From the NCBI RefSeq assembly GCF_030209445.1, contig NZ_JARVSD010000005.1, positions 1-64,000 on the forward strand: a DNA stretch of 64,000 nucleotides, in the 5' to 3' direction. The translations under genes and the position numbers were made by a program. Shown here one piece after another: positions 541-9,513 of this stretch. This stretch comes from Promicromonospora sp. MEB111 (lineage in GTDB: Bacteria > Actinomycetota > Actinomycetes > Actinomycetales > Cellulomonadaceae). The notes beneath the pieces were generated by a model. The model was not told the origin of the DNA, searched no databases, and was given only the letters and a program-made list of their open reading frames with translations. Position 1 is the first letter of the stretch; each line of letters begins with the position of its first letter.

Positions 541-934
541 CTGGAAATTTCTTCGGATTGTTCTGTGACGTCCGGTTCGGACCGATGTCGGGGTCCGATA
601 TGGGTGCCCAGGGCACCGTTCGGCGCGCACGATCTCTTTTCATCCGGTAGGCCTGTGATCCAGGCCACATGTGAATGCATCGAAAAGTGCTGTGACATCC
701 GGGACGTGCCCGCGTCTTAGCTGCGACGCGGACGAAGTTCGGACCTCGCTGGGGGCGGGCCGAGCTCCGGCGCGTCGGGTGGGAGACCGTGGTTCGGAGT
801 GCGCTGGGGGCACGCCGAGCCACGATCTCCCGCTCTCCGGCGCGAGCGCCGGCTCGGACCTCGCTGGCGGCGGACCGAACCGGCGCTCGTGTCCCCGCGC
901 GGCCCTCGCCGTGGGCGGGGCACGCCGAACGTCC
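541..934. repeat. Non-coding stretch with dyad repeats before leuS
   Basis: No convincing gene lies between the 73-aa gene and the leuS leader. The stretch holds a degenerate 26-bp repeat at 738-763, 793-818 and 853-878, spaced 55 and 60 nt. Each copy starts TTCGG or CTCGG and ends in CCGA, so each is an imperfect dyad. A related dyad lies at 576-597 (TTCGGACC ... GGTCCGA). A GGTGCCCAGGGCACC palindrome lies near 604-618. The repeats may be binding sites for a regulator or structured RNA of a longer leuS transcript. Confidence 0.4.
685..716 (+). promoter_or_regulatory. ECF-like promoter, copy 2 (rightward, toward leuS)
   Basis: AAGTGCTGTGACATCCGGG at 685-703 is followed by CGTC at 713-716, with 15 nt between TGTGACA and CGTC, identical to the other two copies. 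At the expected start-codon position there is GAC, not ATG. If used, this promoter would give an RNA with a long leader running through the repeats into the leuS attenuator. Confidence 0.4.
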
Positions 935-970
935 TTTACCCGGCTCGGCCGGCCCGCGTACGGTGGAGGC
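935..970 (+). promoter_or_regulatory. leuS leader promoter
   Basis: TTTACC (935-940) and TACGGT (959-964) are separated by 18 nt and place transcription start at about 971, the A of the leader ATG. The leader would therefore be leaderless. The GGAGG at 965-969 is too close to the ATG to act as a ribosome site. Confidence 0.6.
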
Positions 971-1105: not shown

Positions 1106-3088
1106 ATGAGCGAGCAGCGCACCACCCCCGAACCTGCCGGCGACGGTCCGCCTGCGGCCCACCCGTTCGCGGCGTCCGACGACGGCGCACGGCCCCGCCG
1201 CTACCTGCTGACGATGTTCCCGTACCCCTCGGGGGACCTGCACATGGGTCACGCCGAGGTGTTCGCGATCACCGACGTCGTGGCGCGGTACTGGCGCGCC
1301 AAGGGCTTCGACGTGCTGAACCCGGTGGGCTGGGACTCGTTCGGCCTGCCGGCCGAGAACGCGGCGATCCGCCGTGGCGAGCACCCCGCCGTGTTCACGG
1401 AGGCCAACATCGCGACCCAGGCGGCGTCGATCGAGCGCTACGGCGTCTCGTTCGACTGGTCGCGGCGGCTGCACACCCACGAGCCGGGCTACTACCGCTG
1501 GACGCAGTGGCTGTTCGCCCGCCTGCACGAGCGGGGTCTGGCCTACCGTGCCGAGGCGGAGGTGAACTGGTGCCCGCACGACCGCACGGTCCTGGCGAAC
1601 GAGCAGGTGGTCGACGGCGCGTGCGAGCGCTGCGGTACCGCCGTCGTCGCGCGCAGCCTGACGCAGTGGTTCTTCCGGATCACCGCGTACGCGGACCGGC
1701 TGCTGGACGACATGACCCTGCTGGAGCCCGGCTGGCCCGCCCACGTCCTGACGATGCAGCGCAACTGGATCGGCCGCTCCGCGGGACCGGAGGGAGCGAC
1801 GACCTACCGCCTGCACGACTGGCTGGTCTCCCGGCAGCGCTACTGGGGCGCCCCGATCCCGGTGGTGCACTGCCCGGCCTGCGGGGAGGTGCTGGTGCCG
1901 GACGACCGGCTGCCCGTCGAGCTGCCGCACCTGGAGGGGGACCGCCTGGCCCCGGGCGACGTCTCGCCCCTGGCCGCCGCCCGCGACTGGGTGGAGACCA
2001 CCTGCCCGCGGTGCGGCGGCCCGGCCGAGCGGGACACGGACACGATGGACACGTTCGTGGACTCGTCCTGGTACTTCCTGCGGTACCTGTCGCCCGAGTA
2101 CGACGGCGGGCCGTTCCGGCCCGAGGACGCCGCCCGCTGGATGCCCGCCGCGCTGTACGTGGGCGGTGTCGAGCACGCGACGATGCACCTGCTGTACGCG
2201 CGGTTCGTCACCAAGGTGCTGTACGACATGGGCCTGGTGCCGTCGCCCGAGCCGTACGCCCGCCTGATGAACCAGGGGCAGGTGGTCAACCACGGCCGCG
2301 CGATGAGCAAGTCGCTGGGCAACGGCGTGGACCTGGCGGCCGAGCTGGACCGGCACGGCGTCGACGCCGTCCGGCTGGCGATGCTGTTTTCCGGGCCACC
2401 GGAGGACGACGTCGACTGGGCGGACGTCTCACCCGGGGCGATGCGCACGTTCCTGGCTCGCGTGCTGCGGCTGGCTCCGGCGGGGTCCGAGTCGGGCGCG
2501 CCAGGTTCGGGCGGGCCGGGCGTCCGCGCGTCGGACGCCCTGCGCCGCACGGTGCACCGGACCGTGCACGACGTCGACACCCTGGTCGAGGCCGGGCGGT
2601 TCAACGTCGCGATCGCGCGCCTGATGCAGCTGGTGGGTGAGGTGCGGCGGGCGTCGTCGCCGGCCGGCGGGGCGGACGACGGCGGGGCGGACGACGGCGG
2701 GACGCACGACGGCACGGCGATCTACCGCGAGGCCATCTCCGCCGTCGCGGTCCTGCTGAGCCTGTTCGCTCCGTTCACCGCCCAGGAGCTGTGGGAGCGG
2801 CTGGGGCGTACGACGCCGGTCGCGGCACAGCCGTGGCCCGAGGTGGACCCGGCGTACCTGGTGGTGTCCGAGGCCGAGGCGGTGGTCCAGGTGGACGGCA
2901 GGGTGCGGGACCGGATGGCGGTCCCGGCGGACGTCGTGCCGGCCGAGCTGGAGCGAGCCGCGCTGGCCCGGCCGGCGGTCACGCGTGCCGTGGGCGGACG
3001 GCCGGTGCGGCGGGTCGTGGTCCGCCCGCCGCACCTGGTCAACGTCGTGACCGGACCCGACGTCACATCCGACGTGACTCCCGGTTAG
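1106..3088 (+). CDS. leuS: Leucyl-tRNA synthetase lacking the CP1 editing domain
   Basis: Cytosolic class Ia synthetase that charges tRNA-Leu with leucine. It is 660 aa, whereas bacterial LeuRS is usually 800-950. Visible features: the HIGH-type motif HMGH (46-49); NWCP...CERCG zinc-type region; the NWIGRS strand (220-225), followed after only about eight residues by [15 protein letters not shown]; a second CPACG/CPRCG cluster; [16 protein letters not shown]; the KMSKS loop as AMSKS (399-403); then the anticodon-binding and C-terminal domains. The CP1 proofreading domain normally inserted after NWIGRS, with its threonine-rich and catalytic Asp regions, is absent with a clean join. An acidic Gly/Asp repeat (15-bp units near 2664-2693) lies in the anticodon domain. 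It is preceded by its own Leu attenuator. It is probably a second, inducible LeuRS; the housekeeping copy is not in the window. The stop overlaps the convergent channel gene. Confidence 0.9.
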
Positions 3089-6219: not shown

Positions 6220-6235
6220 CTAATGTCTCCTGTAC

Positions 6236-6425
6236 CGCCTGCGAGGTCAGCTGTCGGGTTCGGGTAGGAGTACAACCCGGCCGCACGGCTACTGGGGGGT
6301 TTCCGTCCGGCTTCACCCCGAGGACGACGATCCTGCTGTCGCCCGGGAATGGGTCCCCCGCTCCTGTCTTGAACGTCTGGTCACGAACCGGTGACAGGAC
6401 TCGGCGTCCGGCTCGCGACTCCACC
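6236..6425 (-). promoter_or_regulatory. c-di-AMP riboswitch (ydaO/yuaA class)
   Basis: Read on the minus strand, the leader contains GGGGGACCC, then GGGGTGAAGCC, then CTCCTACCCGAACCCGACAG directly followed by CTGACCTCGCAGGCGG. These are the core signatures of ydaO-type aptamers, and the last block ends about 15 nt before the start codon. Actinobacterial versions commonly control NlpC/P60 and other wall hydrolases, usually as OFF switches when c-di-AMP is high. The 5' boundary is approximate. A small hairpin CCACC-GTGC-GGTGG sits just upstream, at 6421-6434. Confidence 0.85.
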
Positions 6426-8802: not shown

Positions 8803-9513
8803 TCAGTACGGGCGGATGTAGACCGCGTAGTCCTGCCACTGCTCGGTGTAGCGCACAGGACTTCCGTAGTTGGCGGCCTCGACCACCATGCCGCCGCCGG
8901 CGTAGAGGGACACGTGCCCCTGGGTCCACACGATGTCGCCCGGGATCGGCGACGACACCTGGTACCCGGTGGCCACCATCGACGACGAGGAGTGGGGCAG
9001 CTCGACGCCGAGCTGCGCGTACACGTACTTGACCAGGCCCGAGCAGTCGAACCCGGTGGCGGGCGAGCTGCCGCCGTACGCGTAGGCGATGCCGATGTAC
9101 TGCATCGCGATCGAGACGGCCTGGGCTCCGATGGAACCGTCGGACGCGTAGTCCGGGGTGGCCGGCTCGGCTTCGGCGGCCGCGGTCGTCGCGGTCACCT
9201 GCTCTGTGGTGGTCTCCACGACCGGCTCCGGCTCGGGCTCGGGAGCGGGGGTGACCTTGACGGCCTTGCTCTCGATGTTGAGCCTCGCGTCGTTCGCGAC
9301 CTGCACCGCTGGTGCCGTCGCGACGTCCTTGGCCAGTCGGTTCGAACCGTCTCCCGCGATCGCGTGTGCGCTGGGTGCGAACGCCGTGGCGAGAAGTCCG
9401 GATGATGCCGCGATCACTGCGCCGGAACGTGCTGCGGTGCGTGTCACGGACATGAAGTGAGTGCTAGGAGCGTGATCGGCGCGGTGTCGACCGCGTCGGA
9501 CGGTGGTACTCAC
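8803..9513 (-). CDS. Secreted NlpC/P60 peptidoglycan hydrolase, paralogue 2
   Basis: A 236-aa exported hydrolase. The N-terminus is basic, with a hydrophobic core SGAVIAASSGLLATAFAPSAHA, cleaved near residue 51. A linker contains PAPEPEPEPVVE followed by Thr/Ala-rich sequence, likely wall-spanning. The NlpC/P60 domain occupies about 127-236 with Cys157 (GFDCSGLVKYVYAQLG) and His200 (TQGHVSLYAG). The C-terminal 110 residues closely resemble the enzyme at 5485-6219, so the two are recent paralogues. The GTG start at 9513 has GGAG 8-9 nt upstream. No ydaO signature was found in its leader. Confidence 0.92.
   Translation of the reverse strand: MSTTVRRGRHRADHAPSTHFMSVTRTAARSGAVIAASSGLLATAFAPSAHAIAGDGSNRLAKDVATAPAVQVANDARLNIESKAVKVTPAPEPEPEPVVETTTEQVTATTAAAEAEPATPDYASDGSIGAQAVSIAMQYIGIAYAYGGSSPATGFDCSGLVKYVYAQLGVELPHSSSSMVATGYQVSSPIPGDIVWTQGHVSLYAGGGMVVEAANYGSPVRYTEQWQDYAVYIRPY

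Follow-up and report, generated by a model that had tools for sequence, protein, structure and literature searches.

The first 64,000 nucleotides of contig NZ_JARVSD010000005.1 of Promicromonospora sp. MEB111 (here called the window) contain, at 1106-3088 on the forward strand, an open reading frame (ORF) that starts with ATG and encodes a leucyl-tRNA synthetase (LeuRS) of 660 amino acids (aa) lacking the CP1 editing domain. The ORF scores 673 bits with the profile for bacterial LeuRS (TIGR00396, leuS_bact; cut-off 548), in a match split into two stretches, the better of which begins at profile position 406. Read from the sequence, HMGH occupies residues 46-49 and AMSKS 399-403; the catalytic motifs are intact, the zinc-ribbon cysteines are in place, the anticodon-binding region (PF08264) is kept and the C-terminal region aligns to other LeuRS. 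With its synthetic site and tRNA-binding regions kept, the enzyme should be able to charge tRNA-Leu. At the position of CP1, NWIGRS (residues 220-225) is joined to YRLHDWL by an eight-residue linker, AGPEGATT (residues 226-233; nucleotides 1781-1804, forward strand), a replacement evident both from the sequence and from the distance between the flanking anchors. This distance (WIG/WIA to (Y)RLxDWL) could be measured in 100 of 112 proteins, the anchors not fitting the other 12, and spans 1 to 16 residues in 16 CP1-less enzymes and 159 to 216 in the remaining 84 LeuRS. Motifs and junction together confirm the clean deletion of CP1 that the first-pass annotation had described, and an artefact of assembly is excluded because the same kind of in-frame junction recurs in 12 of 13 Promicromonospora genomes and in Antribacter gilvus. 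About 58 residues that precede KMSKS in the LeuRS of Thermus thermophilus (a segment that we take to be the leucine-specific domain) are also missing from the window enzyme, as they are from three other proteins of our set (rows L016, L035 and L037).

An AlphaFold model of the enzyme is fairly confident (pLDDT 84, pTM 0.81, from a 29-row alignment). Compared with the LeuRS of Mycoplasma mobile (MmLeuRS, PDB 3ziu), which also lacks CP1, it gives TM scores by target length of 0.84 for chain B (rmsd 3.4) and 0.80 for chain A (rmsd 8.2), above those of every other structure among the 50 PDB rows listed, all of them LeuRS. By E-value, however, the 3ziu chains stand only 45th and 50th among these 50, and by sequence 3ziu ranks behind the LeuRS of T. 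thermophilus, Neisseria gonorrhoeae and Escherichia coli, so the likeness lies in the missing domain and not in descent. The circumstances also differ: MmLeuRS is presumably the sole, housekeeping LeuRS of a reduced genome, whereas the window enzyme has a full-length LeuRS beside it in a 6.2 Mb genome and lies behind a leucine leader.

This leader, the presence of which had been claimed beforehand, is there as anatomy: a leader peptide, a hairpin and a terminator. A promoter-like sequence picked out by eye (TTTACC at 935-940, 18 nucleotides, TACGGT at 959-964, forward strand, as are all features of this region) ends six bases ahead of the ATG of a small ORF (971-1000) for the peptide MRTARSLLM, in which adjacent leucine codons, CTG CTT, lie at 989-994; a similar layout is seen in other upstream regions, and the transcript for the leader peptide is probably itself leaderless at its start. 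Next comes a ten-pair hairpin, A:C, with 1000-1009 pairing to 1032-1041, and then an intrinsic terminator, recognised by folding (GCCCCTC and GAGGGGC followed by TTTTT, 1043-1066); the segment carrying both (995-1068) folds at a z-score of -5.0. Within the hairpin loop, GGGCAC (1024-1029) has its complement past the T-run, in GTGCCC (1068-1073), and an alternative fold can be drawn. Closest to the gene is the Shine-Dalgarno region GGAGAGCGAG (1092-1101, read from the sequence), where AGCGAG (1096-1101) is complementary to CTCGCT of the leader (985-990).

The genome of this strain (6.23 Mb, 99.4% complete) also encodes a full-length LeuRS, a 1003-aa ORF on another contig (C14) with the editing motifs TTRPDT and GGDERD. 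The only match in the genome to the LeuRS editing domain, PF13603 (C14:30087-30719), falls inside this full-length enzyme, and a search with PF13603 across the 6.23 Mb thus found no free-standing editing domain. Across Promicromonospora, the full-length LeuRS is present in 13 of 13 genomes and the CP1-less one in 12, with 85-91% identity among the latter; the nearest named matches to the window enzyme are from P. iranensis (83%) and P. sukumoe (87%). The CP1-less enzyme is present in Antribacter gilvus too, and absent from the other sampled genome of that genus (G038). Within Promicromonospora the gene belongs to the chromosomal core and is not peculiar to one strain. A plasmid origin was considered and rejected: 78 plasmid records matched, and all 15 rows listed did so in two pieces, as a LeuRS with CP1 should; the best-ranked of the records, at 11.85 Mb, is a chromosome to judge by its size.

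A wider search of 150 genomes of the family gave strong matches in 36, comprising 13 CP1-less enzymes (the 12 of Promicromonospora and that of Antribacter), 22 second copies of the full-length type and one other. The second copies belong to three genera labelled here g7 (15), g21 (two) and g23 (five); 'full-length' rests on the pattern of the match, and 16 of the 22 were placed in a quick tree. The remaining match (L158, in G033) was rejected as a second copy, as it groups with ordinary LeuRS in that tree. A housekeeping-type match was found as well in all 36 genomes except G033 and G149 (the latter 75% complete). The CP1-less enzymes of the family form one clade (support of 99 in the quick tree and 100/100 in a more careful one), to which the second copies of g7 and g21 are sister, with those of g23 outside. 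Among the second copies measured, CP1 has 201 residues in g23, 159-162 in g21 and 167-193 in g7, and in the editing motif TTRPDTxxG the residue before the glycine is proline in all 13 of the g7 and g21 copies measured, other enzymes measured having F, Y or H. Since CP1 is shortened and its motif changed in the sister genera, the domain appears to erode before it disappears. In three genomes (G145, G081 and G092, one of them 83% complete) the coding sequence of the full-length second leuS is either spread over two frames or cut short (L155, L156 and L157), which may reflect decay or sequencing error.

Beyond the family, CP1-less enzymes were found in Rhizocola hellebori and in two genomes designated G550 and G170, each of which has another LeuRS (that of G550 seen in part). 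M. mobile does indeed provide a known case, as previously stated, but loss of CP1 is evidently not confined to it and the window. Because the careful tree keeps the CP1-less groups apart, the sequences need three separate losses in Actinomycetota: in Promicromonospora/Antribacter, in Rhizocola/G550, and in G170. A single origin was rejected both on this separation (100/100, and 100/99 for Rhizocola/G550) and by an approximately unbiased (AU) test in which seven CP1-less rows (G170 excluded) were forced together (p 1e-4). The tree has some long branches (G170 2.83, Rhizocola 0.59); G170 joins its own full-length LeuRS, a placement that carries a long-branch warning, and the quick tree differs in that Rhizocola branches off first within the second-copy clade. 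Enzymes of this kind are rare: besides the window's own genome, which was included in each sample, there was one in a phylum sample of 396 genomes, one in a class sample of 394 and none in an order sample of 396. The three samples overlap in part, and distant CP1-less enzymes could be missed because the surveys used strict E-values. A further candidate, in G617, proved to be a 796-aa protein with CP1, and two other genomes of the class of G170 gave no strong match. The CP1-less frame of Rhizocola (L012) has 557 codons, and a further stretch, corresponding to about residues 280-297 of the window enzyme, is missing from it too.

By a search pattern that requires adjacent leucine codons, leaders precede 11 of the 13 genes of the CP1-less clade and all 19 of the full-length second copies examined (from the 22, those of G137, G141 and G149 not being included), as well as the genes of G550 and G170. 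In one of the two misses (L092) a leucine is replaced by proline; in the other (L094, on G003:C12), near a contig end, the leader has given way to sequence that resembles, to the eye, the end of an insertion-element gene, the hairpin and terminator still being present. Leader and hairpin occur in five genera (Promicromonospora, Antribacter, g7, g21 and g23), and the same arrangement is seen in G550 and G170; a terminator with its T-run is present in all of these except g7, the leaders of which have no T-run. The number of adjacent leucine codons is two in the window and three or more in g7, g21 and g23. In all 29 leaders compared, a CTT leucine codon is followed by exactly six nucleotides and then by CCG at the start of the hairpin; CTT is rare, accounting for 1.2% of leucines in the other ORFs of the window. 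In the G550 leader the last leucine codon is CTC. The hairpin shows changes on both sides at five of its ten pairs among 18 sequences (L092, L094 and L097 being left out), a count biased by the location of the 3' arm through its complement to positions 2-6, which favours pairing at those five; the same arms are seen in an alignment not fitted to structure. The loop segment GGGCAC (shortened to the five bases GGCAC in g23) and its partner GTGCCC are present in all 29 leaders, and their pairing gains no support from covariation because both are nearly invariant. A search with Rfam at gathering cut-offs found no leader family in the window. Elsewhere in the same genome, leuA has a similar leader peptide, MRLTVILLLRCRDEA, followed, as read by eye, by the inverted repeat CCGCGACGAGG/CCTCGTCGCGG (L204, 1281-1328).

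The choice of leucine codons in the window leuS is extreme, all 53 being CTG. Elsewhere in the window, 41 gene-like ORFs (picked mechanically, and including one with seven leucines that is also all CTG) have 1296 leucine codons, of which 52% are CTG and 44.5% CTC; against this background the probability of 53 out of 53 is about 1e-15, and the next highest share of CTG in any window ORF with at least eight leucines is 73%. Seven other amino acids are encoded in the window leuS at background usage (P 0.13 to 0.43). The share of CTG is 86-100% in the 12 Promicromonospora CP1-less genes and 48-70% in the housekeeping leuS of the 13 genomes of the genus (some of these frames being taken from stop to stop); it is 95% in G170, 79% in G550 and 74% in Antribacter. 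In full-length second copies it is 54-76%, above that of their own neighbours (30-46% at 16 loci; neighbour comparisons here and below use stop-to-stop frames, and some loci come from one genome). The theory of selective charging of tRNA isoacceptors, with supporting data (PMC1183508), holds that leaders use codons whose tRNA is the first to become uncharged. It would follow that genes needed during a shortage should avoid those codons.

All this makes it likely, in our view, that the window gene encodes an auxiliary, conditional LeuRS that is switched on when charged tRNA-Leu runs short. That there would be a second LeuRS in this genome had been foreseen and is borne out by the copy on C14; that the CP1-less one is used conditionally, as had also been proposed, is what leader and codon choice point to, and none of the three findings that would have refuted it emerged, as another LeuRS exists, no separate editing domain was found and the deletion is not a read-level artefact. 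When charged tRNA-Leu is ample, the ribosome would complete the leader, hairpin and terminator would form, and little leuS mRNA would be made. When it is short, whether through scarcity of leucine or inhibition of the housekeeping LeuRS, the anatomy suggests that the ribosome would stall at the leucine codons ahead of the hairpin, the leader structure would be disrupted and the gene would be expressed. An mRNA with CTG alone might remain translatable while the tRNA reading CTC and CTT is uncharged, which may be the reason for the bias. The enzyme would then charge tRNA-Leu with no post-transfer editing, and errors of mischarging might be tolerated briefly or be cleared in trans by the housekeeping LeuRS. 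CP1 itself may have been lost because selection is relaxed on an enzyme that is seldom needed, or because a site at which an inhibitor can trap tRNA was selected against. This model, the best supported of those considered, builds on the second copy, the loss of the domain, the anatomy of the leader, conservation and codon bias, from which we infer stalling, induction and activity.

Several observations weigh against it. The gene is absent from one Promicromonospora genome (G005) that is 99% complete. Before the CP1-less gene of Rhizocola, no leader was found with the adjacent-leucine pattern, and this gene has no shift to CTG (54%). One of the two leucine codons in the window's own leader is CTG. 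No classical antiterminator was found when one was sought in the window leader; the terminator still folds without most of the 5' arm of the hairpin, and the conserved partner of the loop is transcribed only after the T-run. In Streptomyces coelicolor, changes to the leader codons of ilvB had no effect, and those to leuA did not fit classical attenuation, as reported in PMC1262725. CTG richness is also not peculiar to this gene, which speaks against tying it to the loss of CP1: it reaches at least 97% in 11 of 76 other actinobacterial LeuRS genes (probably housekeeping ones), and in 37 of 38 loci the CTG share of leuS is above that of its neighbours (Rhizocola being level). The bias may therefore distinguish leuS genes whose translation has to go on during shortage. 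In Actinomadura and relatives (L024, L029, L050, L072 and L054), leuS has 97-100% CTG and its neighbours 55-69%, and a wider rule for leuS codons may exist. Finally, as a LeuRS without editing would err most in leucine shortage, simple survival of starvation does not predict the loss of editing.

Control of this general kind has precedents. Seliverstov et al. (2005; PMC1262725) described a LEU element ahead of actinobacterial leuA and, for two Streptomyces, candidate attenuators ahead of leuS. The LEU element shares with the second leuS leaders a leader ORF with a run of leucines and a hairpin loop complementary to sequence downstream, with which it may form a pseudoknot, and its leader is complementary to the Shine-Dalgarno sequence, a feature clearest here in g7, where 10 of 12 leaders have an 8 bp complement. 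In the leaders whose best match is six bases, as many as 93-164 of 500 shuffles do as well, so such a match is common by chance; the best leader complement in the window is of 7 bp, lies inside the ORF and is reached by 40 of 500 shuffles. Control at the level of translation, as in the LEU element, would be an alternative form of the switch. The present leaders differ in preceding a second leuS (editing-less in Promicromonospora) and, in most genera, in the addition of an intrinsic terminator. A spare synthetase under such control also has a counterpart in S. coelicolor, where Vecchione and Sello are said to have found in 2010 that the auxiliary TrpRS1 is subject to ribosome-mediated attenuation; there too, a duplicate synthetase gene reportedly follows a leader for the cognate amino acid, but the amino acid is tryptophan and no editing domain is involved. 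The ThrRS T2 of Anabaena is a stress-induced spare with impaired editing (PMC4787780), although it is a ThrRS induced by low zinc, and its editing domain is degenerate and not deleted. A CP1-less spare LeuRS in these bacteria was not found among the papers listed in literature searches, judged by titles and the openings of abstracts, with most subscription journals outside the search.

The most serious rival, which we hold to be rather less probable than conditional use in shortage of charged tRNA-Leu but worth keeping in view, is a dedicated resistance enzyme directed against a natural LeuRS inhibitor of neighbours or of the producer itself, in which the absence of CP1 would itself be protective, as tRNA could no longer be trapped in an editing site. 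Immunity of the window enzyme to benzoxaboroles is a fair inference from its lack of an editing site, and a general protection from LeuRS inhibitors is possible. The second copy does sit behind a leader that would respond to inhibition of LeuRS, and all three losses of CP1 occurred in genomes with another LeuRS. Spare SerRS, IleRS and TrpRS confer resistance to antibiotics (PMC9437257), and AgnB2 of Agrobacterium radiobacter K84 (PDB 5ah5), also a second LeuRS in its cell and also without the leucine-specific domain, provides self-immunity against agrocin 84. AgnB2, however, is plasmid-borne and has kept its editing domain (PMC5059758). CP1 is also kept in the sister genera behind the same kind of leader, and a gene present in 12 of 13 genomes is unlike a cluster-bound immunity gene. 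The natural LeuRS inhibitors that we know of all act at the synthetic site, which also counts against resistance. No biosynthetic cluster was found among the ten neighbours to which the scan was limited, and the role in self-immunity suggested in the first-pass annotation is so far unsupported.

Deliberate mistranslation, by which norvaline, isoleucine or methionine would be loaded onto tRNA-Leu in shortage so that translation continues, seems improbable. The lack of an editing domain and the maintenance of the gene through almost the whole genus would suit it, and the CP1-less LeuRS of M. mobile is said to give an ambiguous proteome; but MmLeuRS still has tRNA-independent pre-transfer editing (both statements from PMC3834818), a housekeeping LeuRS with editing motifs could clear mischarged tRNA, and the synthetic site may discriminate by itself. 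A shade less probable again is a role outside translation, such as supplying leucyl-adenylate or leucyl-tRNA to some other process; this has been suggested for archaeal LeuRS-I and LeuRS2, and archaeal paralogues with a disrupted CP1 or weak charging do exist (PMC9437257), but here the anticodon-binding and C-terminal regions are kept, the leader fits a role in charging, and the neighbours common to Promicromonospora and Antribacter suggest no such pathway. That the gene is a decaying relic of an acquired LeuRS, drifting to loss, is very hard to credit, for although CP1 is shortened in the sister genera, one genome of the genus lacks the gene and the sister copy is split or ends early in three genomes of the family, the frame is open and the catalytic motifs are kept across the CP1-less clade, identity within the genus is high, the leader is conserved and the leucine-codon bias is extreme.

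Returning to the auxiliary LeuRS, a broader proposal can be put forward tentatively, as one that we think rather unlikely to hold in full: that in at least three actinobacterial lineages a spare LeuRS independently shed its editing domain, with a leucine-shortage switch ahead of it in two of the lineages and, in the third, in one of its two members, so that a non-proofreading enzyme would be induced (in Promicromonospora from a nearly all-CTG gene, CTG being the sole leucine codon that would still be readable), offering either no site to tRNA-trapping inhibitors still to be found or a temporarily leucine-ambiguous proteome.

The remaining features of the region are more loosely connected with the gene. 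Upstream of the promoter-like sequence there are three exact copies of CGGANNNCGCTGGNGGCNNNCCGA (740-763, 795-818 and 855-878, forward strand), with no others in the window; they are partly palindromic, about 55-60 bp apart, and possible candidates for operators or RNA hairpins. The pattern was drawn from its own copies, so that its chance figure of 2.5 (for up to three mismatches) is no test. Exact CGGANNNCGCTGGNGGCNNNCCGA was found in 21 of 241 fetched loci, all being this locus in Promicromonospora or Antribacter, several of them copies of one another. Seven of the ten neighbouring genes scanned had a Pfam match (an ion channel, an NlpC/P60 protein, a subtilase, two zf-HC2 proteins, in one of which a weak sigma-70 region was seen, and proteins resembling a tRNA methyltransferase and VanY), and three had none; a small ORF, the ion channel and the NlpC/P60-type gene are the neighbours shared by Promicromonospora and Antribacter. 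The NlpC/P60 gene (5485-6219, reverse strand) has a c-di-AMP riboswitch (ydaO/yuaA; 6221-6403, reverse strand, 56.7 bits) directly upstream, and a second gene that looks NlpC-like to the eye lies not far away (8803-9513, reverse strand).

Attenuator-controlled spare synthetases and one CP1-less LeuRS, that of M. mobile, were known already; what is new is their recurrent combination. Editing by LeuRS is generally regarded as essential quality control, and the one case of complete CP1 loss known to us beforehand was in a parasite whose genome is reduced. Here, large-genome bacteria keep a full-length LeuRS together with an editing-less one, apparently in reserve, a pairing with which the conditions that make a loss of accuracy worthwhile can be tested directly. 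How an editing domain may be lost is documented in nature by the series of a full CP1, a shortened one with a changed motif and none at all, and the all-CTG gene behind a leader ending on the rare CTT is a clean example to which the theory of selective tRNA charging can be applied. If it is true that loss of CP1 protects from inhibitors, natural compounds that trap tRNA in the editing site would be predicted to exist.

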